64,000 nt of DNA from Gammaproteobacteria bacterium (GTDB taxonomy: Bacteria > Pseudomonadota > Gammaproteobacteria > GCA-001735895), in contig JAOTYD010000012.1 of assembly GCA_029862005.1 (NCBI GenBank), forward strand, positions 1 through 64,000, read 5' to 3'. This document shows, one piece after another, positions 13,446 to 60,525 of the stretch; position 1 is the first letter of the stretch, and each line of letters opens with the position of its first letter. The position numbers and the translations under genes were made by a program. The notes under the pieces were generated by a model. It made no database searches and was not told the DNA's origin. It was given only the letters and a program-made list of their open reading frames with translations.

Positions 13446-14447
13446 ATGTCAATGATCCACAAAATAAAACCACAATTACGGCACCTGTTAACGATTCTTT
13501 TTGCCAGTTTTATAAGCATGGCCTTGATTCTACCTAGCGGCCAGGCAGCGCCAATGATCGACTCAATTCATTTTCTAATTCCAGGTGGCGCAGGTGGTGG
13601 TTGGGACGGTACCGCACGCGGCACCGGCGAAGCTCTAACCAAATCCGGTCTGGTCGGTACGGCTTCGTTTCAGAACCTGTCCGGCGGTGGTGGCGGAAAA
13701 GCAATCGCTCATATCATCGAGACTGCCGATCAACAAAAGGGAACCCTGATGGTGAATTCAACGCCCATCGTGGTGCGTTCCCTGACCAAGGTTTTCCCGC
13801 AATCATTTCGTGATTTGACCCCTGTTGCCGGCACAATCGCGGACTACGGCGCATTCGTGGTGCGTGCAGATAGCCCGATTAAAAGCTGGAAAGATGTTGT
13901 AGCCGGATTCAAGGAGAATCCCCGAAAAATGAAATTTGCCGGTGGATCTGCCAAGGGTAGCCTGGATCACCTGGTGCCGGCTGCTGCAATCAAGGCCGAA
14001 GGCCTGGATCCGAAGACCCTGCGATATATTCCCTATGATGCGGGTGGCAAGGCGATGGCGGGCCTGCTATCCGGTGAAGCCCAGCTACTCTCAACCGGTT
14101 TGGGTGAAGCGCTCGAAATGAGCAAGGCGGGCCAGGTTCGTATTCTTGCGATCACCGCGCCGGAACGGGTCAGTGATGCACCCGATGTTCCGACGCTGGT
14201 GGAAATGGGTAATTCGACGGTGTTTGCCAACTGGCGTGGATTTTTCGGCGCACCCGGGCTTTCCAAGGCCGAGGCTAATGCATATGCGGAGGTACTCGGC
14301 AAGATGTATGAAACTCCGGAATGGGAAACTGTGCGTGCCCGAAATGGATGGGTAAACCTCTACAAGCCAGGCGCCGAGTTTTACAGTTTTCTTGAAGAGC
14401 AGGAGAAACTGGTCGGCGACTTGATGCGCGAGCTGGGATTTCTGTAA
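13446..14447 (+). CDS. tctC: Tripartite tricarboxylate transporter substrate-binding protein (TctC/Bug)
   Basis: 333 residues. AAGGAGG lies just upstream; ATG at 13446 (spacing 4) or at 13452 (spacing 10) could be used. A long Sec signal peptide (hydrophobic HLLTILFASFISMALILPSG) ends near QAAPM. Mature part: IHFLIPGGAGGGWDGTARG, the Bug family's carboxylate-binding loop, then YDAGGKAMAGLLSGEAQL and the C-terminal helix. It binds a carboxylate in the periplasm for the TctBA membrane part encoded next. The GWD motif resembles members of the glycine-rich 'citrate/aromatic' subset. Ligand unknown. Confidence 0.88.
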   Translation: MSMIHKIKPQLRHLLTILFASFISMALILPSGQAAPMIDSIHFLIPGGAGGGWDGTARGTGEALTKSGLVGTASFQNLSGGGGGKAIAHIIETADQQKGTLMVNSTPIVVRSLTKVFPQSFRDLTPVAGTIADYGAFVVRADSPIKSWKDVVAGFKENPRKMKFAGGSAKGSLDHLVPAAAIKAEGLDPKTLRYIPYDAGGKAMAGLLSGEAQLLSTGLGEALEMSKAGQVRILAITAPERVSDAPDVPTLVEMGNSTVFANWRGFFGAPGLSKAEANAYAEVLGKMYETPEWETVRARNGWVNLYKPGAEFYSFLEEQEKLVGDLMRELGFL

Positions 14448-28177: not shown

Positions 28178-29827
28178 TCAGGGTTGATTAACCTCGGTAT
28201 TGCTATCGACACCACGCTCTTCGAGCAGGGTTGTCAACCAGTCCGGGTCCATTTCCGGTACCGAGGACAGCAACAGGTCGGTGTACGGGTGATGTGGTGG
28301 CGTGAACATTTCATCTTTCGGCCCCTGTTCGACCACCTTGCCATACTGCATGACCACGACTTCATCGGCAATAGAACGCACTGTTGCGAGATCGTGGGTG
28401 ATGAACATGTAGGCGAGGTTCATTTCTTTTTGCAGCTTGTCGAGGAGGCGTAGAATACCTTCCGCCACTAGTTGGTCCAATGCACTGGTCACCTCGTCGC
28501 AGATGATGAACGTGGGTTCTGCCGCGAGGGAACGGGCTATGCCGATACGCTGTTTCTGGCCGCCGGAGAGCTCCGGTGGATAGCGGTTGTAGTACAGCGA
28601 AGGATCCATTTCGATTAAATCCAGTATTTCGTCAACGCGATTTTTAAGCTCCGGTCCATGCAGGCCACTGTAAAAAGCAGCGGGGCGTCCAATGATCTCG
28701 CTGATTTTAACTTTTGGATTGAGCGCGGTATCCGCCATTTGATAAATCATTTGCGCCTGGCGCAGCTGATCCTTGGTGCGATCCCGGTAATCTGGTGGCA
28801 GCGGCGTACCCTGGAATAAAACTTCTCCCTTGGTCGGCGGTAACAAACCGGTGATGCATCGGGCCGTGGTCGATTTGCCCGAACCTGACTCACCCACTAC
28901 CGCAACCGTCATTCCGGAATAGATATCGAACGATACATCTTCCAGCACGGGTGTATCTCCGTAAGCTGCGTCAACATGCTGTACCGAAATCAGTGGAACC
29001 GTGTCAGCGGGGCGTGGCACCTGATCCTTTTTAAAATCACGCACCGCCCACAGCGACTTGGTGTAGTCATCCTGGGGATTTTCCAGCATGGTCCTGGTAT
29101 CGGCTTCCTCAACCTCGTCTCCCTTGAGCAGCACTTTAATGACATCAGCCATCTGCGCCACGACCGCCAGGTCATGGGTAATGTATATGGCCGCGGTATT
29201 AAACTGATCAACGATATCGCGAATCGCCGACAATACTTCGATCTGGGTTGTGACATCGAGTGCAGTCGTCGGCTCGTCAAAGATGATCAGGTCGGGTCGA
29301 CAGGCCATCGCCATTGCCGTCATCGCGCGCTGTAACTGCCCGCCCGATACCTGGTGTGGATAACGAAAACCGATTTCCCTGGGGTTGGGCAAACGCAAAC
29401 GCTCATATAGCTCCATTGCGTCTTCCTGGCTTTCCAGACGTTTCTGTATCCGATACTGTAACGGTGCCTCGGTATGTTGGTCGATCAATTTATGCGCCGG
29501 GTTGAATGAGGCGGCAGCCGATTGCGCGACATAGGCAATGCGTGCACCCCGTAAAGACTGAAGATCTGATGCCGGGGTTGTGGTCAGCTCCAGGCCATCG
29601 AATTCGATCGAAGAGCCTTCCGATATACGACAACCATCACGGGTAAATCCCATCGCTGCCAGTCCAATCGTCGATTTTCCGGCACCCGACTCACCGATCA
29701 AACCCATGACCTCACCACGGTGCAGCGTCAGGTCAATACCATGCACGATTTCGATCCAGTGTTCGTCGGAGTACCCTTCGATACGTAGATTCTTAATATT
29801 GAGCAGTATGCTTTTATCTTGACTCAT
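28178..29827 (-). CDS. Fused dipeptide-type ABC transporter ATPase (DppD-DppF in one chain)
   Basis: 549 residues with two nucleotide-binding domains. First: Walker [10 protein letters not shown] (45-53), signature VSGGQ (160-164), Walker [13 protein letters not shown]. Second: Walker [10 protein letters not shown] (312-320), then [16 protein letters not shown] and [13 protein letters not shown]-terminal [20 protein letters not shown] is the Opp/Dpp oligopeptide-transporter C-terminus type, here matching the HPYT motif. Energises import with the two permeases and the binding protein of the same operon. The last gene of the operon, 5 bases after the permease gene. Confidence 0.92.
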
Positions 29828-40921: not shown

Positions 40922-40981
40922 TAAAAACCATTGCCTGATGGCTAGAATTTGCTCCCATATAGTCGCGCCAAAGGGAGTTCT

Positions 40982-42184
40982 GTGTCGGTGTTATCCGGGC
41001 TTGAGACCAAGTATGTAACGCGTGCCGCTTTACTCGGCTCTGATTACCGTGGTGTCAATTTCGAAATGCTGTGCGAGGTAGGTGACGAGGTGAAAGTCGG
41101 CGCCGCAGTGATGCGCGACGTGCGACGGCCCCAGATAAAGTTTACTGCGCCGCTATCCGGCAGAGTCGCCAGCATCGAGCGGGGCAAGCGCCGCAAGTTG
41201 ATTAGCCTGCAAATCGACGTGGACGATTCCATGGCTGTCGCGAGCCAGCAACCTCCTGCCGGCAATGACGGCGTATCGCTTCGCAATTTCATGCTTGAAT
41301 CAGGTGCCTGGAGTATGCTGCGCACGCGCCCATTCGGTAATATTCCTGATCCTGACGCCGAACCCGCCGCAGTTTTTGTAACCGCACTTGACGCTGAGCC
41401 CCTCGCACCGGAACCGCGCTCAATTATCGAAACCTATCAGCAAGAGTTTAATAGTGCGGTAAATGTGCTTGCAGACTTAAGCGATGCACCGCTATACGTT
41501 TGCCATGCACCGAATCACGTGCTCGGCTTCGAAAACTCGAGCAAGATTCGGAGCGTCAGTTTTGCGGGAGGATACGCTGCGGGCTTACCCGGTGTACATA
41601 TAAACGCGCTCTGCCCGATTGGATTTGGTGGTGGCGAAGTCTGGCATATCGGTTACCAGGATGTCATTTCGCTCGGGCACTTGCTACTTCACGGCGAGCC
41701 CTGGTTGCAGCGAGTCATATCCCTCGGTGGCAACGCGGTCAGAAATCCACGTGACCTGGCAGTTTATCCAGGCTCGAAGATCAGTGAATTACTGGTAAAC
41801 GAAATCAGTGAAGTCGCGCCACGAACTCTCATGGGGTCAACGATTTACGGGCGCGAATCGGCTCCAGGCTCCGCTTTTCTCAGTGCACGACAACGACAGA
41901 TTACCGTGTTCGACTCGACAACCGGCGAGGCGGCGGGCACCAAAGCATCGAGCCCCGGTGCATTGATTCCGAACGAGACGCTGGAAAGTTTAATACTGCC
42001 CGGTATTTACCCCGTGCCGCTGATGCGTGCATTACAGTTGGGGGATGCCGAGCGAGCGCGGGAACTCGGTGCACTGGAACTGGTGGAAGAAGACGTGATG
42101 CCACTCAGTCGTGCCTGCGTCTCCAGCAGCGACTATGCGATGTTGTTGCGCGATGTGCTCGACCAACTCGAGAGTGTCCGTTGA
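40982..42184 (+). CDS. nqrA: Na+-translocating NADH:quinone reductase subunit A (divergent)
   Basis: 400 residues from GTG at 40982 (AAGGGAG at 5 bases); an upstream TTG (40949) adds 11 residues. Matches NqrA at EVGDEVKVG, IKFTAPLSGRV, GLPGVHINAL, VWHIGYQDVI, LGGNAVRNP and GYAAG. Divergent from Vibrio: the N-terminus lacks about 18 residues, with an in-frame stop immediately upstream of the TTG, and the C-terminal TFVCP region reads SRACVSSSD. Soluble subunit at the quinone site. Confidence 0.9.
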   Translation: MSVLSGLETKYVTRAALLGSDYRGVNFEMLCEVGDEVKVGAAVMRDVRRPQIKFTAPLSGRVASIERGKRRKLISLQIDVDDSMAVASQQPPAGNDGVSLRNFMLESGAWSMLRTRPFGNIPDPDAEPAAVFVTALDAEPLAPEPRSIIETYQQEFNSAVNVLADLSDAPLYVCHAPNHVLGFENSSKIRSVSFAGGYAAGLPGVHINALCPIGFGGGEVWHIGYQDVISLGHLLLHGEPWLQRVISLGGNAVRNPRDLAVYPGSKISELLVNEISEVAPRTLMGSTIYGRESAPGSAFLSARQRQITVFDSTTGEAAGTKASSPGALIPNETLESLILPGIYPVPLMRALQLGDAERARELGALELVEEDVMPLSRACVSSSDYAMLLRDVLDQLESVR

Positions 42185-43266
42185 TGGAAATATTGTTCTC
42201 GAATTCAGGAAACGGACGCAAGCGTATGCTCCAGCTGCAGCTGCTGGCACTGCTCCCGGTCGTCATTGCGGCCCTGGTAAATACCGGCTATCAGTACCTG
42301 GCGGCAATTGCGCGGAATCCCGCACTTGTCACCGATGACTTTCGCAGTCAGATTGCGCTTGGCCTCGGTGCCAACCACGAACGCCTCGGTTTGTACGATA
42401 TGTTTGCGGCCGGTTTCGCACACTTCGTACCAGTCTTGCTGGTGGCTTTACTGGTGGGTGGTTTCTGGGAGCGAATTATCACCGAGCGGCGGCAAGCTTC
42501 GATCGAACCGGGATTCGTTCTGGTCGCCCTTTTGTTCACTTTGCTAATGCCAGGTGCTGCCGCCTGGGTTCACGTTGTATTCGGTATGTCATTTGCGATG
42601 CTGCTGGGCAGGGGGATTTTCGGAGGTGAAGGCAAAACCTTTCTGAGCCCGGCCCTGCTTGGCGTCGCTATCGTACAGGTCAGTTTTCCGGGTGTCGCGG
42701 ATCAGCATCCGTTATGGAGCGGATTGGCCGGGTACGCGGGAAGTGATGCGATCGCGCTGTTTCACCGCGGTGGTGATGCGGCATTGAGCGCTGCCGATAT
42801 CAATTTATGGACTGCATTTATTGGCAGGACTCCGGGGACCATGGGAACCACTTCGGTCCTCGCGGTCGCTCTCGGTGCTGTGCTGTTGCTGATAGAGCGC
42901 CTGATCTCGTGGCGCCTGCTTGCCGCGCAGATTATCGGATTGTTCGTGTTTGCTACGATATTCAATATCCTCGGAGCAGATACCGGCGCCAGCGCAATGC
43001 CGGCCTACTGGCACTTGCTGCTCGGAAGCTTTGCCTTTGGTGCGGTTTTTATTGCCTGTGATCCGGTCGCATCGGCCTGTACCAATCCCGGCAGGTGGAT
43101 CCAGGGATTTCTGATCGCTGCGCTGGTGGTGCTGATTCGAGTGGCTAACACCACGCACCCCGATGCCGTTATCCCGGCCCTGCTGCTTGCGTCGATCGTC
43201 GCACCACTGATCGATCACGCCGTATTAGCCTGGAATATTCGTGGCAGGGCACGCCGCCATGTCTGA
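42184..43266 (+). CDS. nqrB: Na+-NQR subunit B
   Basis: 360 residues; ATG at 42184 shares a base with the nqrA stop (TGATG). Membrane subunit with about 10 segments. GTMGTTSVLAVALG carries the Thr that takes the covalent FMN, and GDPVASACTNPGRW-like FIACDPVASACTNPGRW is the family loop. Shorter than Vibrio NqrB (415), lacking N-terminal residues before ANTGYQYLAAI-type start. Part of the sodium-pumping pathway. Confidence 0.92.
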   Translation: MEILFSNSGNGRKRMLQLQLLALLPVVIAALVNTGYQYLAAIARNPALVTDDFRSQIALGLGANHERLGLYDMFAAGFAHFVPVLLVALLVGGFWERIITERRQASIEPGFVLVALLFTLLMPGAAAWVHVVFGMSFAMLLGRGIFGGEGKTFLSPALLGVAIVQVSFPGVADQHPLWSGLAGYAGSDAIALFHRGGDAALSAADINLWTAFIGRTPGTMGTTSVLAVALGAVLLLIERLISWRLLAAQIIGLFVFATIFNILGADTGASAMPAYWHLLLGSFAFGAVFIACDPVASACTNPGRWIQGFLIAALVVLIRVANTTHPDAVIPALLLASIVAPLIDHAVLAWNIRGRARRHV

Positions 43267-44041
43267 AGTTGCGCTAAAAGACAGCACTACCCGGGCGCTC
43301 GCCATGGCAATCACGGTCGCGTTTATCTGCGGTCTGCTGGTTTCCGTGGTCGCGGTCAGTCTGCGACCGATTTACAAGGCAAACATCGAGGCCGAACGCA
43401 TCGCCCAGCTCGAACTGGTGCTGGGCGCACTGTCGGATATTGGACGTGTACTGACGATCGATAACCTCGAGGCCCGTATCGTCGACCTTGAGAGTGGCGA
43501 GTTCGACGATAGCATTGACGTTGCCACCTTTGACGCCGAGAGAGCGGCCGCGAAGCCTGCTACCAGTGCGACGATTCCCGCTGATCTCGATCTTGCCGGT
43601 CTCAAGCGACGCGCGCTGCACGCACCCGTTTACCTGGTGCGGGACGCCAGTGAACAGATAGACCTGGTTATTCTGCCGGTGTCAGGACGTGGCTACCAGT
43701 CGACATTGCGCGCCTGGCTAGTGCTCGATGGCGACACGCAAACCGTGCGCGCGCTCAAGTTTTACCAGCATGGAGAAACGCCGGGCGTGGGGGCCCGTAT
43801 AGAGGAGCCGGAATGGGAGGCGCAGTGGCGTGATTTACGTGCTTTCGACGATGCCGGTGTACTGCGCATCGGGGTCCGGTCCCAGGCGGGTGGTGCCTAC
43901 AGTGACGACGCCGAATACCAGGTCGATGGTATTTCGGGCGCGACACGAACCACCCAGGGTGTCGACGGCATGCTACGTTTCTGGCTCGGCGAGTTTGGAT
44001 TTGCGACCTTTTTACAGCGTATTCGCGAGGAACGACTCTGA
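43259..44041 (+). CDS. nqrC: Na+-NQR subunit C
   Basis: 260 residues from the ATG at 43259, overlapping nqrB by 8 bases. One N-terminal transmembrane helix ([21 protein letters not shown]), a periplasmic domain with [15 protein letters not shown] and [27 protein letters not shown] contains the SGATxT flavinylation motif for covalent FMN. Ends TGATG into nqrD. Confidence 0.93.
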
Positions 44042-44700
44042 TGCAGGATAACAACTGGAGAATCCTGACGCGTCCACTGATTGATGACAATCCGTTAACC
44101 CTGCAGATTCTCGGAATCTGCTCGGCACTGGCGGTAACAACCTCGCTCGATACCGCGTTGCTGATGAGCCTGGTGGTGGTTTGCGTGCTCGCCCTTGGTA
44201 GTGGCTCGGTGAGCCTGATTCGCGGTCATATACCGCATTCTGTGAGAATTATCGTACAAATCACGATCATCGCGACTCTCGTTATCGTGGTCGACCAGGT
44301 ACTTCAGGCCTACGCTTTTGAACTGAGTAAACGCTTGTCCGTGTTTGTTGGTTTGATCATTACCAACTGTATCGTTCTCGGTCGAGCCGAGAGTTTCGCG
44401 ATGCACAATGGCTTCGTCGCCAGCACGCTTGACGGAATCGGTAACGGGCTGGGTTATTCACTGATCCTGGTGATCGTCGGCGCCATCCGCGAGTTCTTTG
44501 GCAAGGGTAGCCTGCTGAATATCCAGATTCTGATCCCGACCAGCCAGGGGGGTGCGTTCGAACCACTGCACCTGATGCTGTTGCCGCCGAGTGCATTTTT
44601 CATCATCGGCGGCATTATCTGGTTCATTCGCCGCAAGCGGCCGCAGCAAGTAGAGAAACCCGAGTTTACACTGCGCGCACGAGAACAGGAGTCGAAATGA
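44041..44700 (+). CDS. nqrD: Na+-NQR subunit D
   Basis: 219 residues, six membrane helices. [40 protein letters not shown] and [26 protein letters not shown] are diagnostic. The Cys in [10 protein letters not shown] and in TNCIVLGR bind an intramembrane iron centre with NqrE. Overlaps nqrC by 1 base and nqrE by 4. Confidence 0.95.
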
Positions 44701-45302
44701 ACGCCTTTTTCGAACTGTTTCTGCGATCGGTTTTTCTCGACAACCTGGCACTGTCATTTTTCCTCGGCATGTGCACCTTTCTGGCAGTCTCCAAACGCGT
44801 CGATACCGCTTTTGGCGTGGGGCTGGCAATGATGGTCGTGCAAACTGTAACAGTACCGGTCAACAACCTGATTTATAACTTTCTGCTGGCGCCCGGGGCA
44901 CTGGACTGGGCCGGGCTCGGCGATGTCGATCTTTCGTTTTTACGCCTGATTGCGTTTATCGGTGTTATCGCGGCGATGGTGCAGGTACTTGAAATGACGC
45001 TCGAGTTTCACGTACCAAAGCTGCACCGGGCGATGGGCATTTTCCTGCCATTGATCACGGTCAATTGCGCGATTCTTGGCGGCAGTCTGTTCATGGTCGA
45101 GCGCAGCTACGGGTTTGCCGAAAGCGTGGTCTTCGGCTTCGGGACGGGGTTGGGCTGGGCGCTTGCGATCGTGATATTTGCCGCGATTCGAGAGCGGCTC
45201 AAATATGCCGATATCCCCGAAGGCCTGCAGGGACTCGGGATAAATTTTATCGTCGCCGGCATCATGTCACTCGGTTTCATGGCGTTTGCAGGGATGGGCT
45301 GA
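44697..45302 (+). CDS. nqrE: Na+-NQR subunit E
   Basis: 201 residues, six membrane helices, homologous to NqrD in inverted topology. [20 protein letters not shown] and [15 protein letters not shown] carry the two Cys that complete the iron site. [23 protein letters not shown] is the standard central block. The gene begins 4 bases inside nqrD and ends TGATG into nqrF. Confidence 0.95.
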
Positions 45303-46522
45303 TGCTGGAAGCGACACTCGGAGTATTATTCTTTACCGGCATCGTCTTACTGTTGACGCTGTTTGTGCTGGCGGCGCGGCGCGTACTGGTACCGCACGGC
45401 GAGTGTCAAATCGAGATCAATGCGCAAAAGAAAGTCAGCGCCCAGATCGGACAACGGTTGCTCGGGGTTTGCCAGCAAGCCGGCATTCACCTGCCCAGCG
45501 CCTGCGCCGGCGCCGGCACCTGTGGATTGTGCAAGGCCCGGGTCGTCAGCGGTGGTGGCGAGGCAGGACCACAGGAACTCGCGCACCTGAGCCAGCGCGA
45601 GGCGCGCAAGGGTACCCGCCTTGCCTGCCAGGTGGCAGTACTGGGTCCGATGTCAATCGAAGTTGACGACGCATATTTTGATGTCAAAACCTGGCACTGC
45701 GAGGTCCTGCAAACGCGCAATGTCAGTACCCTGATCCGGGAGATCGTGATGAAATTGCCCGCAGGCGAACCGATGGAGTTTCGCGCCGGGGGTTTTGTCG
45801 AGCTTACCAGCCCCGCCTACCAGGTCGCCTTCAGCGAATTCGAGATCGAACCCGAGTTTCACGATGTCTGGGATCGGTTTAACCTTTGGAAGCTTACTGC
45901 CGGCAGCGATACCGAGGTAACACGTGCCTACTCGATGGCCAACCATCCTGCTGAAAAGGGACTCATTATCCTCAACATACGCATTGCTTTGCCGCCCCCG
46001 GGGCACCCAGGGATACCACCCGGAGTGGTTTCGAGCTGGCTGTTTTCATTGAAGCCGGGTGACCCGGTATCGATTCGAGGTCCGTATGGGCACTTCGCGG
46101 TTGAACCCTCGGACCGGGAGCTGGTATTCATCGGTGGCGGTGCCGGCATGGCGCCGTTGCGGGCACAGATTCTCGATTTGCTCGAGACCCACGATTCACA
46201 GCGCAAGATAACTTACTGGTACGGTGCGCGTTCTCGCCGGGAGCTGTATTATGAAGACGTGTTCGACAAACTGCAGCATGAACACGACAATTTTGAATGG
46301 CATCCGGCATTGTCCGAAGCGGAGCAAAGCGATGCCTGGGACGGCTTTACCGGTTTCATTCACCAGGTTGCCTATGACAATTACCTGGCGCAACACCCGG
46401 CACCTGAAAGCTGCGAGTATTACCTTTGTGGACCGCCGATGATGGTGCAATCGGTACTTGCGATGCTCGATGAGCTCGGGGTTTCAATGGAGAATATTCA
46501 TTATGATGATTTTGGCAGTTAA
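45302..46522 (+). CDS. nqrF: Na+-NQR subunit F (NADH dehydrogenase subunit)
   Basis: 406 residues from the ATG at 45302. N-terminal membrane helix (GVLFFTGIVLLLTLFVLA), 2Fe-2S ferredoxin motif CAGAGTCGLC with a later Cys in LACQV, then a ferredoxin-reductase module with RAYSMAN (FAD), GGGAGMAPLRAQILD (NADH) and CGPPMMVQSV. It takes electrons from NADH. It is one base after nqrE and 21 bases before nqrM. Confidence 0.96.
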   Translation: MLEATLGVLFFTGIVLLLTLFVLAARRVLVPHGECQIEINAQKKVSAQIGQRLLGVCQQAGIHLPSACAGAGTCGLCKARVVSGGGEAGPQELAHLSQREARKGTRLACQVAVLGPMSIEVDDAYFDVKTWHCEVLQTRNVSTLIREIVMKLPAGEPMEFRAGGFVELTSPAYQVAFSEFEIEPEFHDVWDRFNLWKLTAGSDTEVTRAYSMANHPAEKGLIILNIRIALPPPGHPGIPPGVVSSWLFSLKPGDPVSIRGPYGHFAVEPSDRELVFIGGGAGMAPLRAQILDLLETHDSQRKITYWYGARSRRELYYEDVFDKLQHEHDNFEWHPALSEAEQSDAWDGFTGFIHQVAYDNYLAQHPAPESCEYYLCGPPMMVQSVLAMLDELGVSMENIHYDDFGS

Positions 46523-46543: not shown

Positions 46544-46684
46544 ATGGCGACTATATTAATAGCGATCCCTCTATTTATACTGGCAGTGGTCGGACTGGGA
46601 ATCGGTCTCTTGCTCAGGCAGAAACCACTTTGTGGTAGTTGCGGTAACTGCAGCGAGTGCGTGATACGCAGGGCCAGATCATGA
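46544..46684 (+). CDS. nqrM: NqrM, Na+-NQR maturation protein (short form)
   Basis: 46 residues, too short for usual gene lists. GGGAGAG lies upstream; ATG at 46544, stop at 46682-46684. A single N-terminal hydrophobic helix (ILIAIPLFILAVVGLGIGLLL) is followed by RQKPLCGSCGNCSEC, four Cys in a CxxCxxCxxC run. NqrM (DUF539) delivers iron to the NqrDE centre, and usually has ~70 residues with four Cys. Position right behind nqrF supports the call. It overlaps the CBS gene by 4 bases (ATGA). Confidence 0.88.
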   Translation: MATILIAIPLFILAVVGLGIGLLLRQKPLCGSCGNCSECVIRRARS

Positions 46685-47085
46685 GTACCGGTATCGAAAA
46701 ATACATGGCCACCGAACTTGTCAGCTTTGCGCCCGACGATGATATTATTCATGCCATGCGTGTTTTGCTGGATAAGCATTTATCGGGTGCGCCGGTGCTT
46801 GATCAGGGCGGGCAGATGGTAGGAATTTTGTCGCAAAAGGATTGCCTGGCGATTGTTTACCAGGCCGCTTATCACCAGGACTGGGGCGGTAAGGTCGAGC
46901 AGTACATGAGCCGCGAAGTGGAACATATCGACGTCGAAACTACCATCTACGATGCCGCCGATAAATTCCTGCACTCGAGTTATCGTCGTTTTCCGGTATT
47001 GCGTGACGGGCAACTGGTCGGCCAGATAAGTCGGCACGATATCATGCGCGCGCTGGACGAAAACTACCTGCGCGACGCGCTTTGA
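46681..47085 (+). CDS. CBS-domain protein coupled to the nqr operon
   Basis: 134 residues from ATG at 46681, overlapping the nqrM stop (ATGA). Two CBS motifs: YMATELVSFAPDDDIIHAMRVLLDKHLSGAPVLDQGGQMVGILSQKDCL and YMSREVEHIDVETTIYDAADKFLHSSYRRFPVLRDGQLVGQISRHDIMRAL. CBS pairs bind adenosyl ligands. Tight coupling to nqrM suggests a sensor of the NADH/ATP state for the pump, but no direct evidence. Its last 22 bases overlap the 3' end of the convergent kinase gene. Confidence 0.9.
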   Translation: MSTGIEKYMATELVSFAPDDDIIHAMRVLLDKHLSGAPVLDQGGQMVGILSQKDCLAIVYQAAYHQDWGGKVEQYMSREVEHIDVETTIYDAADKFLHSSYRRFPVLRDGQLVGQISRHDIMRALDENYLRDAL

Positions 47086-48875
47086 AATTCACTTGCAGCA
47101 TATCGTGCGTCGGGGATTTTTGACTGCGCGTCTCCCGGTATATCTAAATCGGGTTTCACCGGCAGTGTAAACATGATCGAGCAACCCTGCTGGTCACCGG
47201 CAGACTCCACGACGATACTCCCTCCATGAGCTTCGATTATTCGTTGCACCAGCGACATACCGATACCGGTCCCGTCGATTTCCGGATTAAGACGTTCAAA
47301 CAAATTAAAGATGCGGTCATGGTACTTTGGATCGATACCGATTCCGTTGTCCTCAACCCTGCAGATAACATCGCTATCATTTTGGACCGCGCTTATCCTG
47401 ATGCGGGGTACCGGTTGATCACCCATGAATTTTATCGAGTTTTCAATCAGATTCTGAAAGACTTCTAACAGGCGTAAACGATCTCCCCAAAATCGCGGCA
47501 TATCGGTGTCTATATCGAGTTCGACACCCCGGTTATCCAGCTTTTTCTGAACAGTTTCAACGGCCTGTTTTACCAGGTCGGTAAGTGAACCAGTCTCGGG
47601 AGGATTGACGATACGGCCTATCCGGCTTAATTCAAGTAATCCATCGAGGAGCTCTCCCATGCGATTAGCCGCCAGGGTGATCTGATTCAGATCGTTGTTT
47701 ATTTGCTTGGAGTCATTGGCGGCTATCGCTTTTTGTAACAGGCCGATGAATCCGTTAATCGTTACCAGCGGCGTTTTCAGATCGTGCGAAGCCGTATATA
47801 CAAATCGCTCGAGTTCAGCATTCTTGACTTCGAGTTCAGTAGTTAAGATTTCCTGTTCTTTGCGGATCGCTTCCTCGGAAGTGATATTGCGAACGATGCA
47901 GAGCACTTCGTCATCGCGGTATTTGACAATGCGCGCTTCGTATACCTGATTGGATTGGGGTAATTCTATTGCATAGATGTAGGTCCCGGCAGTCGTTAGC
48001 CCAATTTTAACTGCTTGTATTAGTCCCCGTTGCACCTCAATAGGGATCGATAACTCGTTCAGGAATTTGCCAACAATATTATCGTCTGCAATTTCCAGTA
48101 TTGTGTGACTGCCGATGGCCCCCAGGATCTTCCCATCAGAGTTCAGGCGCAGTACCGAATCGGGGAGTGCCTTTAGCAGGTTGTTCAGTTGTTGTTGGCT
48201 ATGCAGCAATTGCTGCTCAGATGAATGCAGCTCGGTAAGTGAACGATTGATCGAGTTCAGAGCCCACCGAATTAAAAAATAACTCAGCAATGCAAGTGTG
48301 ATCAGAAAGGCCACCAGACTCCAATTGTCGCGACGGCTAACTAAATCCAGTCGTTTAACCTGTTCCTTGTACTTAAGATCATGGGATCTCTCGAATTGCT
48401 CCACGCTCAACATCAGACCTTGAAGCATTAATCGTGCGTGAGCGAAAGCGTCGCTATTAACCGGATTACTTTCCGGTTGAGGTAAAAACAGTCGGTCGAG
48501 CTGAGATCCCAGCTTTATTGAAAGCGGATCAGCCGAGCCGAGTTTATTTTGCAGTTCGATAACATTCCCGAGATGGATTTGAAGTCTGTGCAGTGAAATT
48601 GCCGGGTTAAATCGGCCTCCGTATAAATCCTGGGAATGTATTCCTGATTTCGTGCCCGTTAACATTAGTTGTGCCAGGTAAAGTTGCATATTAGCCAGCT
48701 CTTCCTTCATTTTTACGCTATTTACAATGATGAGCTGGTGAATCGCGATCTCATCAGATATCTCGAGTTGGCTTCTTTCCTGCCATAAAACCGTGGCAAT
48801 CGCGCTGGCCAGAATAAATAGTGTGATCCCCATAAACTGGGTCAGCCGTTTTATGGATAATAATTTTGTCGGCAC
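47064..48875 (-). CDS. Sensor histidine kinase with PAS-like domain
   Basis: 603 residues. N-terminal TM (FMGITLFILASAIATVLW), a periplasmic helical domain of ~160 residues, TM2 (LVAFLITLALLSYFLIRWAL), a coiled-coil linker rich in Gln, a PAS-like part (LKALPDSVLRLNSDGKILGAIGSH), phospho-acceptor His in ASHDLKTPLVTINGF, and HATPase with ENSIKFMG, VEDNGIGID and GTGIGMSLVQRIIEAHGG. No response regulator gene is adjacent. It lies 9 bases after the PhnD-like gene, suggesting that protein senses the ligand for it. Confidence 0.92.
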   Translation of the reverse strand: MPTKLLSIKRLTQFMGITLFILASAIATVLWQERSQLEISDEIAIHQLIIVNSVKMKEELANMQLYLAQLMLTGTKSGIHSQDLYGGRFNPAISLHRLQIHLGNVIELQNKLGSADPLSIKLGSQLDRLFLPQPESNPVNSDAFAHARLMLQGLMLSVEQFERSHDLKYKEQVKRLDLVSRRDNWSLVAFLITLALLSYFLIRWALNSINRSLTELHSSEQQLLHSQQQLNNLLKALPDSVLRLNSDGKILGAIGSHTILEIADDNIVGKFLNELSIPIEVQRGLIQAVKIGLTTAGTYIYAIELPQSNQVYEARIVKYRDDEVLCIVRNITSEEAIRKEQEILTTELEVKNAELERFVYTASHDLKTPLVTINGFIGLLQKAIAANDSKQINNDLNQITLAANRMGELLDGLLELSRIGRIVNPPETGSLTDLVKQAVETVQKKLDNRGVELDIDTDMPRFWGDRLRLLEVFQNLIENSIKFMGDQPVPRIRISAVQNDSDVICRVEDNGIGIDPKYHDRIFNLFERLNPEIDGTGIGMSLVQRIIEAHGGSIVVESAGDQQGCSIMFTLPVKPDLDIPGDAQSKIPDARYAASEFQSASRR

Positions 48876-48884
48876 TGGAGGCCC

Positions 48885-49826
48885 CTAGTTTGGCTTGTCT
48901 GTATCTAACAAAGCTTCACTGTTCCTGGCAATTGTTGACAGCGAGTCAAAATATTCCGGATCCGCCGGTATGTATCCTATCGCGTTTAAGTGTTGTAGAA
49001 CGATAGCGTGATCTGCATTGTCAGGCGATAGTTGCAAAAATGCGTTGCGAACTCTCAAATTGAAGCTATCGATAAATTTTCGATGCGTAGCCCAGACATA
49101 GTTTGCGTATGGCGGCGTTTCCCACAAGATCCGGATTTCATTGGACCTGATCAGTTTACTATCCATCAGGGAACGAATCGTTGTTGCATTAACAACACCG
49201 ACATCAACTATGCCGTCTCGCACCCAATAGGCAGTTTTGTCGTGTGAGCCCGAGTATTGAACCGAGCTGAAAAACGATTCCGGATGAATGTTTTTCTGTT
49301 GCAGAAAGTATCGCGGCATCAGGTGACCGGATGTCGACAGGCGTGAACCGAAGGCAATTCCTTTGCCCTCTAGGCTTTCCAGTGTCTGCGCCGGGCTTTC
49401 TGTATTTACTATGAACAGGCTGGTAAAGCGAGTGTCAACCAGGCGCATTACCAGCGGTACTGCATGATCATTTTGCCGGGCTTTGATGAAACTGTAGCCG
49501 CCAAAATATGCGAGATCGATTTTTTGCTCATGAAAAAGTTTCAGCATTTCCTCGTAGGATTTTGGCACAATCAATTCGCAGCGTAGCTGTAAATAATTTG
49601 AAAGATAATCTAGTACCGGCTCAAACCGCTTTTTAAGCATTTCTGGATTTTGGTTCGGTAAAACACCGATACGCAGAATAGCAGGGGGCTCAGTCATGCC
49701 AGTAGAGGACTCATTGACATCAGGCATAAATAAAAGTATGCCAATGATCAGGGCCGATATAACGGTCAAACTCAAAACCGTTTTAAAAGTTCTCTTTATT
49801 GGATTACCTGATTTATTCGGTTGCAT
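48885..49826 (-). CDS. Membrane-anchored PhnD-like binding protein (kinase partner)
   Basis: 313 residues. A single N-terminal transmembrane segment (TVLSLTVISALIIGILLFM) without a cleavage site suggests it is anchored. Core: LRIGVLPNQNPEMLKKRFEPVLDYLSNYL, ELIVPKSYEEMLKLFHEQKIDLAYFGGYSFI, EGKGIAFGSRLSTSGHLMPRYFLQQK, the PhnD/SsuA-like phosphate/phosphonate binding fold. No phnC or phnE genes nearby, so it is more likely a sensory protein than a transporter subunit. First gene of a two-gene operon with the kinase. Confidence 0.85.
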   Translation of the reverse strand: MQPNKSGNPIKRTFKTVLSLTVISALIIGILLFMPDVNESSTGMTEPPAILRIGVLPNQNPEMLKKRFEPVLDYLSNYLQLRCELIVPKSYEEMLKLFHEQKIDLAYFGGYSFIKARQNDHAVPLVMRLVDTRFTSLFIVNTESPAQTLESLEGKGIAFGSRLSTSGHLMPRYFLQQKNIHPESFFSSVQYSGSHDKTAYWVRDGIVDVGVVNATTIRSLMDSKLIRSNEIRILWETPPYANYVWATHRKFIDSFNLRVRNAFLQLSPDNADHAIVLQHLNAIGYIPADPEYFDSLSTIARNSEALLDTDKPN

Positions 49827-57816: not shown

Positions 57817-59358
57817 CTACTTGCGTTCACCCTGAACGATTCGGTCGAGAATCATGGCACAGAACAGAATTGCAAAACCGGCTAGAATGCCCTGGCCGAC
57901 ATTGGCGTACTGAAGCGCTTCGAGTACATCCTCGCCGAGGCCCTTGGCGCCAATCAGGGACGCAACCACGACCATCGCCAGGCTCAGCATGATGGTTTGG
58001 TTGATCCCGGCGCGAATGGATGGGCTGGCGAGAGGTAAATCAACCCGCGTGAGCAGGTACCATTTACTGCCACCAAACGAGACTGCAGCCTCGCGCACAT
58101 GCTCTGGCACACCGCGCAGACCGAGCACGGTCAAACGCACTACCGGTGTTCCGCCAAAGATCATCGTGGTGACAACCGCGGCGGGTTTGCCCGTGCCGAA
58201 GAAGGCGATCACGGGAATCATGAAGACGAAGGCCGGCATGGTCTGCATGAAGTCCATGATCGGGCGAATGAAAGCATAGAATCGCTCCCGGCGTGCGCAA
58301 TACATGCCCAGTGGAATGCCGATGACGATCGACAAACAGGCAGCAGTTCCGAGCAGGGCCAGGGTTGTCATGGCTTTTTCCCAGAAACCCAGCAGCCCCA
58401 TGTACAGTAAAAAGGCACCTGAATAAACCGCAGCACGAGGACCTGCGGATAACCAGGTCAGCAGGATAATAAAGCTCGCGATCACCATCCAGGGGGTTTC
58501 CACGAAGATCAGTTCCAGCGCGTCCAGCACGCTGCGGATGCCATAGGTGATGGCGTCGAAAAAGACCTCGCCGTTGGTCACGCAAAAGGCGAAAAATTCT
58601 TCTACCCAACCGATACTGGTCAGGCGGATGCCGTGCTCGGTCGGAAACTGGATCAACCAGGGATAAAGCCCGGGAAAACTATAGTGGGTCACCGTCGCCA
58701 CCATGATCAGCACCACGAAGCTGCAGCTAAGTGCGATATGCCGCGGGGTCATACCGGATGAAATTCCCGGATCGGACAACCAGTCGGAAAATCGCTTCTC
58801 GAGCAGGGTATTGGCGATGATCGCCTGGCCGACCTTGATTGCAACTAGCGCGACAAAGCCCACGGCAGCGATCGTCATCCCGGTTCCCTCGAGTTGCTCG
58901 GCCTCCAGCCGGATCCCGCCGATCGCGTCTTCCAGCGATTCCACCGTGCGTCGGTAGACATCGATCTTGTCGGTATTGTTCTCGATAGCAGATTCCAGCT
59001 GCTGGCGCCTGAGTTCGAGCGTGCCCTCGATGTTGGCGATACGTTCCCAGGCTTTTGATGCCAGGTCGCCAAACAGGCCGCGCACGATTTGTACGGCTGC
59101 CATGGTTTCCAGGATCAGAAAAGCCAGGCCCCAGTTCCATATGCCGCGAGAACAAAACCAGATCGGGCCAAGTACACCGGCCCAGGTATTCGATGTCCAG
59201 ACAAACTTCGAATCGCTACCGATTTTCGCAAACTGGTTACGGTAGTAACCGGGGCTGGTTTTGACAAAGCGTTCGACCTGCTGTTCTCGCTCCGCGGCAA
59301 AGTATTCACTGTCGTCCGAAATCATTCCTGAAGGTGCATCGAGCGTTTTTTCATTCAT
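57817..59358 (-). CDS. proW: Glycine betaine/carnitine-type ABC permease with long N-terminal extension (ProW-like)
   Basis: 513 residues against ~350 for E. coli ProW. The C-terminal ~250 residues hold the binding-protein-dependent permease core (ACLSIVIGIPLGMYCARR…PAFVFMIPVIAFFG, VREAAVSFGGSKWYLLTRVDLPLASPSI). The first ~190 residues have a TM helix (TWAGVLGPIWFCSRGIWNWG), a coiled-coil predicted at ELRRQQLESAIENNTDK, and another TM. The N-terminal block resembles DUF2628. It overlaps proV by 4 bases. Confidence 0.88.
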   Translation of the reverse strand: MNEKTLDAPSGMISDDSEYFAAEREQQVERFVKTSPGYYRNQFAKIGSDSKFVWTSNTWAGVLGPIWFCSRGIWNWGLAFLILETMAAVQIVRGLFGDLASKAWERIANIEGTLELRRQQLESAIENNTDKIDVYRRTVESLEDAIGGIRLEAEQLEGTGMTIAAVGFVALVAIKVGQAIIANTLLEKRFSDWLSDPGISSGMTPRHIALSCSFVVLIMVATVTHYSFPGLYPWLIQFPTEHGIRLTSIGWVEEFFAFCVTNGEVFFDAITYGIRSVLDALELIFVETPWMVIASFIILLTWLSAGPRAAVYSGAFLLYMGLLGFWEKAMTTLALLGTAACLSIVIGIPLGMYCARRERFYAFIRPIMDFMQTMPAFVFMIPVIAFFGTGKPAAVVTTMIFGGTPVVRLTVLGLRGVPEHVREAAVSFGGSKWYLLTRVDLPLASPSIRAGINQTIMLSLAMVVVASLIGAKGLGEDVLEALQYANVGQGILAGFAILFCAMILDRIVQGERK

Positions 59359-60437
59359 GATGTTTCCGCCCCTTCTATGACTGTTTGCAGGATATCGGGT
59401 CGCGTAATCACGCCAATCTCGATCCCATCGTCGACGACAACAATCGGGGTATCGGCGTCAATGGCCAGCTGAATCAACCGGCTCAGCGATTCATCTTCGT
59501 TAACCCGCGGCGCGTCGTCGGGCGGCTGCTCGGCGTGCGCCAGGTATTTCTCCATGGGCTGCATCACCGCATGTGCGCGTACGATCTTCAGGCGCGAGAT
59601 GCCGGCGACGAAATCGGCCACGTAATCGTCGGCTGGATGCATGACAATATCCTCGGCGGTACCGATCTGAACCACCCTGCCATCGCGCATGATGGCGATG
59701 CGGTCACCAATACGCACGGCCTCGTCCAGGTCGTGGGTAATGAACATCGTGGTTCTTTTCATGACCGCGGACAGCTTGATGAATTCATCCTGCAACTGCC
59801 TGCGAATCAGTGGGTCGAGTGCGCTGAAAGGTTCGTCCATCAGCAGTACGTCCGGGTCGGCGGCAAGCGCCCGCGCCAGTCCCACCCGTTGCTGCATGCC
59901 ACCGGATAATTCATGCGCGTACTTGTTGCCCCAGGCATCCAGCTCGACCGTCTTCAACATGTTGGCCGCCCGGCGCATGCGTTCATTCTTGTTGATATTG
60001 CGAATCTCGAGCGGCATCGCGACGTTATCCAGCACCGAGCGGTGCGGTAACAGCGCGAAGTTCTGAAACACCATGCCGATTTTACGGTTACGGAATTCCA
60101 TCAACTCACTGGGGCCGAGCGCCATAACATCGGTGCCGTGAATTACTATTTTGCCGGCAGTCGGCTCGAGCAGGCGGTTGAAATGGCGGACCAGTGTGGA
60201 TTTGCCGCTGCCGGACAGCCCCATGACGCAGAAAATTTCGCCTTTTTTGACATCGAGGCTGACATCCGCGACCCCGACCACCGCGTTATAGGTCTCGAGG
60301 ACCTCTGCCTTGCCCAGCCCTTGTTCCTGGATGGCGCGTAAGGCGACATCGGCCTGTTCACCGAATATCTTCCAGACATTGGAGATTTCGAGAACGGTTT
60401 CGCCTGCTGACTGACTGGATTGATCTGACACGGCCAT
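59355..60437 (-). CDS. proV: Glycine betaine/carnitine-type ABC ATPase (ProV-like)
   Basis: 360 residues from the ATG at 60437 (GGGGGAG upstream). Walker [14 protein letters not shown], signature [16 protein letters not shown], Walker [14 protein letters not shown]. The N-terminal helix with [13 protein letters not shown] and the C-terminal CBS-like tail ([22 protein letters not shown]) belong to ProV/OpuAA. The CBS part senses ionic strength in relatives. It starts 88 bases after proX and overlaps proW by 4. Confidence 0.93.
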
Positions 60438-60525
60438 TTCTCCCCCGGTGGCTATGAAAAACCTGCTGACAGCTGTGCCGGGGTCGACACGACGCCGACC
60501 CCGCACAGGTTTTTATGTCAAGCGA

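Follow-up and report, generated by a model that had tools for sequence, protein, structure and literature searches.

The stretch of DNA analysed here, referred to as the window, comprises positions 1 to 64,000 of contig JAOTYD010000012.1 from a Gammaproteobacteria bacterium (assembly GCA_029862005.1). The subject of this work is a pair of genes on its minus strand that encode a PhnD-like solute-binding protein (SBP) and a membrane histidine kinase. An earlier reading made from the letters alone (the sequence-only reading) had placed the PhnD-like gene 9 bases upstream of a hybrid-free kinase, and both open reading frames (ORFs) do lie so:

48885-49826, minus strand: PhnD-family SBP of 313 residues, ATG start, matching PF12974 and TIGR01098
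48876-48884, minus strand: spacer of 9 nucleotides (nt), in frame, from the stop codon TAG of the SBP to the GTG start of the kinase
47064-48875, minus strand: membrane histidine kinase of 603 residues, GTG start, with HisKA and HATPase_c domains and no receiver domain

The kinase matched HisKA with 44.7 bits (cut-off 26.9) and HATPase_c with 85.2 bits (cut-off 26.4), with no receiver match, and is hybrid-free as described. No ORF of the ATP-binding cassette (ABC) type was found near the pair by a motif search of the window, which agrees with the reported lack of phnC and phnE; the only ABC-type ORFs recognised in the window by motif are located at 28178-29827 and 59355-60506. The pair therefore lacks the adjoining ATPase and permease genes of an ABC transporter. 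A search of the whole genome with PF00072 gave 53 receiver matches, none of them on the contig of the window (C12, 96,014 bases). The claim that a response regulator is missing thus holds locally, but an unlinked receiver on contig C1, considered below, is a fair candidate.

The SBP scored 223.7 bits against PF12974 (cut-off 27) and 180.2 bits against TIGR01098, above its cut-off of 112.05. It fell under the cut-offs of the PhnD equivalog TIGR03431 (147.1 vs 261.1 bits) and of the putative selenate SBP TIGR04553 (211.1 vs 250 bits), the latter being the top of four NCBIfam hits. Its closest solved chain is 7s6g (E 2.9e-39). The N-terminus is basic and is followed by a hydrophobic stretch:

49725-49781, minus strand: hydrophobic stretch, probable N-terminal membrane anchor (SBP residues ~16-34, read from the sequence)

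Since no lipobox cysteine is found in this stretch, an uncleaved anchor is likely. It is therefore likely that the SBP is held in the membrane by its N-terminal helix, which favours the membrane anchoring put forward in the sequence-only reading without amounting to proof.

The kinase is organised as follows (kinase residues in brackets):

48783-48839, minus strand: first transmembrane (TM) helix (~13-31, by eye; computed from residue 12 in the orthologs L099 and L100; helix 3-73 in the AlphaFold2 (AF2) model)
48315-48782, minus strand: periplasmic helical sensor (docking) domain (~32-187; hidden Markov model (HMM) match, hhalign and AF2)
48258-48314, minus strand: second TM helix (~188-206, by eye; computed from residue 187 in L099 and L100; AF2 helix 141-214)
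47871-48212, minus strand: putative PAS-like cytoplasmic linker (~222-335; no Pfam PAS match)
47616-47813, minus strand: HisKA dimerisation/phosphoacceptor domain (DHp) with His364 (Pfam)
47154-47486, minus strand: HATPase_c catalytic domain (464-574; Pfam)

The periplasmic domain that had been called large spans ~155 residues from one TM helix to the other. The PAS-like linker is missing in three orthologs, as an alignment gap in L080 and L082 and in the short kinase of L081.

To follow the conservation of the pair, 57 genomes were searched at the protein level, among them 31 of the genus, which include the window genome (G000). Close orthologs of the SBP were found in G023, G016, G014, G030 and G020, with 54-67% identity over the best segments. 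In all five the next gene downstream encodes a kinase whose core is that of the window kinase, the spacers being 9, 9, 9, 9 and 18 nt, and the pair is thus present in 6 of the 31 genomes. The pairs of G000, G023 and G016 share their neighbours (a beta-lactamase-family protein, an aminotransferase and others), whereas those of G014 and G030 have different ones, which gives at least two contexts; the contig of G020 is too short to tell. No receiver stands beside any of the five ortholog pairs in the stretches read, the 3' side of the kinase falling off the contig in G016 and G020. Two copies are imperfect: in G020 a frame change divides the SBP, and in G030 unread bases interrupt the kinase.

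Outside the genus, a scan of a collection of genome contigs gave 505 relatives of the SBP, the best 80 of which were analysed; these include five copies from the genus (L099-L102 and L172). A signalling protein is encoded directly downstream of the SBP in 46 of these 80. The partners are 24 HisKA kinases without receiver, 12 hybrid kinases, two HWE/HisKA_2 kinases, seven GGDEF(-EAL) proteins and one protein cut by the contig end (L109, in which a TM helix and a YHLL motif are visible). An ABC ATPase adjoins the SBP in 29 of the 80 (26 by motif and three read from the sequence); L177 was counted as ABC with no ATPase seen, and L139, L163, L165 and L174 fall in neither class. With 6 of 31 genomes of the genus and 46 of the best 80 of 505 relatives, the adjacency of the two genes is more than chance. 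The estimated gap between SBP and partner is -29 to +21 nt in 43 of 45 signalling pairs, and in L107 and L117 a frame change disrupts the partner. Some of the pairs outside the genus have no receiver gene in the stretch (e.g. L103 of Nitrospinaceae, L105 and L112 of gammaproteobacteria, L107 of Rhodospirillales) and others have a receiver adjoining the kinase (e.g. L104, L113, L115, L124). In a plasmid collection 989 records matched the SBP, all below 60% identity; the 30 matches listed showed 26-34% identity and are mostly annotated as transport SBPs, two having no annotation under the match.

We also considered whether the two ORFs derive from one gene by read-through or frameshift. This origin was rejected, the estimated gaps of the 45 pairs varying between -56 and +66 nt, with all frames represented. 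A single SBP-kinase chain is also disfavoured, though the spacer is in frame, as the kinase would then face the wrong side of the membrane.

Some of these relatives show further arrangements. In L104, L108 and L113 the SBP-kinase pair is followed by a two-receiver protein, and in L104 and L108 also by a further hybrid kinase, which points to longer phosphorelays. At the end of the kinase part of the partner in L107 (7416-8756, Rhodospirillales) stands a hemerythrin domain (43.2 bits). The locus L139 (3395-6777, Oleiphilus) has an SBP of the signalling side without a helical-sensor partner; it comes after a gene whose product resembles, by eye, a methyl-accepting chemotaxis protein, but with a sensor part unrelated to the helical one.

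In a tree of the SBPs, 33 ABC-labelled and three unassigned rows form a separate starred group, and on the other side stand the 45 signalling rows with two unassigned and two long-branched ABC rows. Outputs are mixed inside the signalling subgroups, e.g. the kinase of L112 beside the GGDEF protein of L136. In these tree and pocket counts L177 is ABC by default, 29 of 30 ABC labels resting on an ATPase that was seen, and L146 is labelled hybrid, a later domain match having given a HisKA_2 kinase without receiver. A test of the 45 signalling rows as a single clade gave an approximately unbiased p-value (p-AU) of 0.0355, which was not used either way; the opposing set contained L109 and L139, and the two long-branched ABC rows stood on the signalling side.

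The element common to these partners is their N-terminal part, which consists of a helical region between two TM helices with a YH(L) motif after the first and a QL.RLH motif before the second. A Pfam scan of nine partners and the window sensor found no family at cut-off on the sensor part. Profiles built separately for the sensors of the genus kinases, the other kinases and the GGDEF proteins matched each other in hhalign with probabilities of 98.4, 98.0 and 99.7%, whereas an unrelated helical sensor (the C1 kinase family), used as control, gave 0.4 and 0.5%. An HMM built from 38 partners outside the genus recovered the window kinase with E 2.9e-13 over residues 7-206 and its five orthologs with E 2e-9 or better, and the next best ORF outside the training loci reached E 0.57. 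The set searched held 1,891 ORFs of at least 200 residues, including the other HisKA kinases of the genome as far as the flanks reach and the eight same-core kinases of congeners. Thus the sensor domain travels with the SBP and not with the kinase core. Judged from these sequence profiles, one sensor domain is common to HisKA, hybrid, HWE and GGDEF-EAL partners.

AF2 modelled the sensor alone as four helices with a predicted local distance difference test (pLDDT) of 91.4 and a predicted template modelling score (pTM) of 0.83. The SBP and the sensor as one read-through chain, from an alignment of 12 read-through and 31 SBP-only rows, gave a pLDDT of 89.8 and a pTM of 0.84, the confidence being low in a linker at 265-285, and the SBP half matched PhnD, PtxB, ArrX and AioX structures. 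With the SBP making up about half of the chain, we read this pTM as suggesting a defined placement of the SBP on the sensor. A mixed alignment of 94 rows was dropped, its 31 sensor-only rows having been placed mostly on the SBP half. The sequence-only reading had proposed a two-protein sensory complex and its structure prediction; the comparisons support such a unit well through joint inheritance, a sensor domain that tracks the SBP and other PF12974 genes that have their own transporters, and the complex as a physical object is a prediction of the tethered AF2 fusion.

The fold of the sensor gave little further guidance. With Foldseek no match was obtained at E 0.001 or better, 9m08 standing at E 0.084, and a profile search of the PDB with the sensor domain returned weak, mixed hits (best E 0.0047). 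VIA-align aligned the sensor to 5xsj (XylFII-LytS) with Z 12.4 over 113 residues and a root mean square deviation of 2.9; helical bundles of many kinds tie at this level, for which Z below ~13 is common, and de novo designed bundles rank above 5xsj. The low Z and the higher rank of designed bundles make this likeness weak evidence, and therefore no fold family is claimed. The helical-bundle sensors of XylFII-LytS (5xsj), QseG-QseE (9m08, 9m07) and NarQ rank near the window model; 5xsj and 9m08 are by their titles complexes with a partner protein.

These results bear on whether the SBP could be a spare transport protein that feeds an ABC transporter elsewhere and stands beside a kinase incidentally. 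Its closest solved relatives are indeed transport SBPs, and the genome has two PhnD-type ABC operons. However, leaving kinase fusions aside, the two genes other than this SBP that match PF12974 most strongly in the genome (C5:13492 and C55:5580) are each accompanied by an ABC_tran gene and two BPD_transp_1 genes of their own, so that both operons are already provided with an SBP. Moreover, the pair has been kept in two or more contexts, the sensor domain of the partner tracks the SBP across outputs, and the starred group of the SBP tree sets most ABC-labelled proteins apart. We regard incidental placement as improbable, and the pair as very probably an SBP-dependent sensor and not a transporter.

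The binding pocket was compared with that of Pm_PhnD, whose phosphite site is described as formed by Y46, S126, T127, S128, H158, D205 and the capping Y206 (PMC5700983). In the alignment Y46, S126, T127, S128, H158 and Y206 correspond to Y91, S164, T165, S166, H195 and Y243 of the window SBP, so that six of the seven residues are kept, D205 being replaced by N242. Y91, the STS of 164-166, H195 and Y243 are invariant across 45 signalling and 30 ABC-labelled SBPs. Asparagine at the position of D205, a ligand contact, is found in the window and in eight of the 45 signalling SBPs and in none of the 30 ABC-labelled ones. A second aspartate, D13 of Pm_PhnD, corresponds to N58; it is aspartate in 40 of the 45 signalling and in all 30 ABC-labelled SBPs. 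The invariant phosphite-site residues therefore argue for a small tetrahedral oxyanion as the ligand. The Asn replacements might move the preference toward a fully ionised oxyanion. The C-P lyase gene product PhnJ (PF06007) was found in none of the 31 genomes of the genus, and among 14 controls only in E. coli, which leaves room for other phosphonate enzymes. The sequence-only reading had named a phosphonate or similar ligand. Phosphonate is too specific: the pocket matches that of Pm_PhnD, which binds phosphite and methylphosphonate, two aspartates are changed to asparagine, and PhnJ was not found in the 31 genomes.

Pm_PhnD, PtxB and 7s6g, which are transport SBPs for phosphite or phosphate, share 24-31% identity and the phosphite-contacting residues with the window SBP. 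They differ from it at the two Asn positions, and the neighbour in the window is a kinase instead of PhnC/PhnE. Like TorT-TorS, LuxP-LuxQ and NspS-MbaA, the window pair combines an SBP encoded by a gene of its own with a membrane signalling protein that has a periplasmic sensor domain. NspS belongs to another SBP class. In the three-component systems for arsenic oxyanions AioX-AioS-AioR, ArrX and ArxX, a PhnD-fold SBP and a membrane histidine kinase are described as encoded together (PMC5908839). The window pair resembles AioX-AioS in having a PhnD-fold SBP as first component with a membrane histidine kinase, but differs from AioXSR in having no adjacent response regulator, with no receiver on the 96-kb contig, and no arsenic enzyme gene was noticed beside it. 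Cys106 of AioX is reported to correspond to Gly65 of PhnD (PMC5908839); the window SBP has Gly109-Gly110, AioX itself being outside the alignment. ThsS-ThsR and TtrS-TtrR are likewise described with a PhnD-like oxyanion domain as histidine-kinase input (PMC5408782). Unlike in ThsS and TtrS, a stop codon sets the window SBP apart from the kinase as an ORF of its own; the kinase carries a helical sensor in its own right, and no regulator gene adjoins the pair. An arrangement as in ThsS/TtrS is present on contig C5 of the same genome (L045:4968-7456), where a PhnD-like domain is fused to a kinase beside a LuxR-type response regulator.

The likeness to NspS-MbaA lies in the use of an SBP and a membrane signalling protein as a receptor (PMC8967002), and a GGDEF partner also occurs in seven of the 46 signalling relatives; the ligand there is a polyamine, however, and the output in the window is a kinase. 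That system brings up the possibility that the kinase senses something else and is only modulated by the SBP, or that the SBP acts in the apo state with reverse logic. NspS-MbaA is described as driven oppositely by two ligands, with association of apo-NspS and MbaA in its model (PMC8967002), and no evidence here separates these modes from ligand-driven activation; we consider them rather unlikely for the window pair. The best reading of the pair is an SBP-dependent receptor, probably new in its sensor domain and wiring. The titles and abstracts searched describe, outside arsenic systems, no PhnD-like SBP that is a protein of its own and has a GGDEF protein or a helical-sensor kinase as partner, most subscription papers being beyond reach.

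The sequence-only reading had suggested searching the genome for an orphan response regulator. This search gave a candidate, which co-occurs with the kinase core in 18 of 31 genomes:

G000, contig C1, 17488-17940: single-domain receiver of 151 residues, elsewhere in the window genome

We take this receiver to be Rcp1-like. Kinases with the window core, counted at E 1e-40 or better among no more than 23 candidates per genome, were found in 18 of the 31 genomes of the genus. The receiver is present with at least 73% identity in precisely these 18, the other 13 giving weak or no matches. A same-core kinase stands just upstream of the receiver in five of the 18 loci. In 11 the upstream gene is the sulfatase that precedes the kinase in G000 (checked with Pfam in one, L275), and therefore the receiver's own kinase is missing there. 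The two remaining loci fit neither pattern clearly. Across the 18 loci (L199-L216) the receiver is kept, though the kinase between sulfatase and receiver is gone in those 11. A second receiver ORF starts ~1 kb downstream of the receiver in 16 of 18 loci; the genes that follow the 151-residue receiver encode HDOD and REC-PAS-GGDEF-EAL proteins in G000 (Pfam) and, by eye, in G016 and G030.

Eight other same-core kinases (L191-L198) have varied sensors by eye (multi-TM, PAS, GAF-like and SBP_bac_3-like), and together with the window core they form a sensor-swapping kinase family. A receiver gene adjoins none of the eight, with the one reservation that the convergent gene next in L197 contains a weak receiver-like stretch (32 bits). 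Within G000 the window DHp has 55% identity to that of the receiver-adjacent kinase; apart from a kinase on contig C22, taken up below, no other correctly read kinase exceeds 30%. In this table of 28 rows C2:9852, read on the wrong strand, is void; its core score is low (81.0 bits).

It is somewhat more probable than otherwise that the missing regulator of the kinase is the unlinked C1 receiver. The kinase might instead signal to another of the 53 receiver matches or have no dedicated regulator. We give this alternative less weight, but it is to be taken seriously, as the co-occurrence is mostly clade-wide and phosphotransfer to C1 is a prediction. Against it, the intact kinase that stands out by the likeness of its DHp is the one adjoining the receiver, and the receiver operon persists where its own kinase is gone. 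When 23 of the 31 genomes are placed in a RecA tree, the trait falls mostly in one clade, 12 of whose 14 rows carry it. G011 carries it outside the clade, and G005 and G007 (86% and 62% complete) lie inside without both genes.

A two-protein membrane receptor together with the C1 receiver is, as a whole, the explanation we consider likely. At the level of sequence it draws on the gene pairing, the common sensor domain, the oxyanion-site residues, the kinase core and the receiver co-occurrence. We infer binding, docking, phosphotransfer and output to proceed as follows. The anchored PhnD-like SBP would close on a small tetrahedral oxyanion, such as phosphite, methylphosphonate, phosphate or a sulfur or selenium analogue, and would dock on the periplasmic helical domain of the kinase in the predicted complex. 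Docking would shift helix packing across the membrane and with it the kinase/phosphatase balance of the HisKA-HATPase core, which would most likely phosphorylate the unlinked C1 receiver, in an operon with the HDOD and REC-PAS-GGDEF-EAL genes.

Several points weigh against this explanation. The binding and phosphotransfer steps are deduced from sequences and models, and the AF2 model is a tethered read-through fusion without a decoy control. Cleavage of the SBP anchor by signal peptidase is possible, and with N242 and N58 in place of two phosphite-site aspartates the ligand may differ. The contigs of G016 and G020 end at or within 150 nt of the 3' end of the kinase, hiding any regulator there. 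Because the trait is largely one clade, the correlation of receiver and kinase rests on few independent events, and it comes from a survey limited to the stated number of candidates per genome. Finally, the closest DHp in the genome (61%) is that of the kinase on contig C22, which matches the core over no more than 82 residues. This C22 kinase (L273:3600-5015) is without a full core match and is probably decayed.

SBP-dependent receptors have so far been known as separate cases, for arsenite and polyamines and, as a fusion, for thiosulfate. We lean slightly towards an undescribed cross-phylum plug-in receptor, in which a PhnD-type antenna and a helical docking domain are placed on HisKA, hybrid, HWE and GGDEF-EAL outputs, and in which, within the genus, sensor-swapped orphan kinases converge on one unlinked receiver whose kinase is often lost. 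If this is true, a reused module of SBP and docking domain would explain PhnD-type genes without transporters, which are easily annotated as transporters; new small-oxyanion sensors would be at hand and the partners of orphan kinases would become predictable.

The remaining features near the pair are minor. The gene that converges on the kinase overlaps it tail to tail over the last 22 nt of the kinase gene:

46657-47085, plus strand: two-CBS-domain gene

Adjoining the pair, a run of genes at 40949-46522 resembles what we take to be a Na+-translocating NADH:quinone reductase (Nqr) cluster. A marginal second PF12974 match in the window (29.3 bits, cut-off 27) is located at 13827-14162, 35 kb from the pair.

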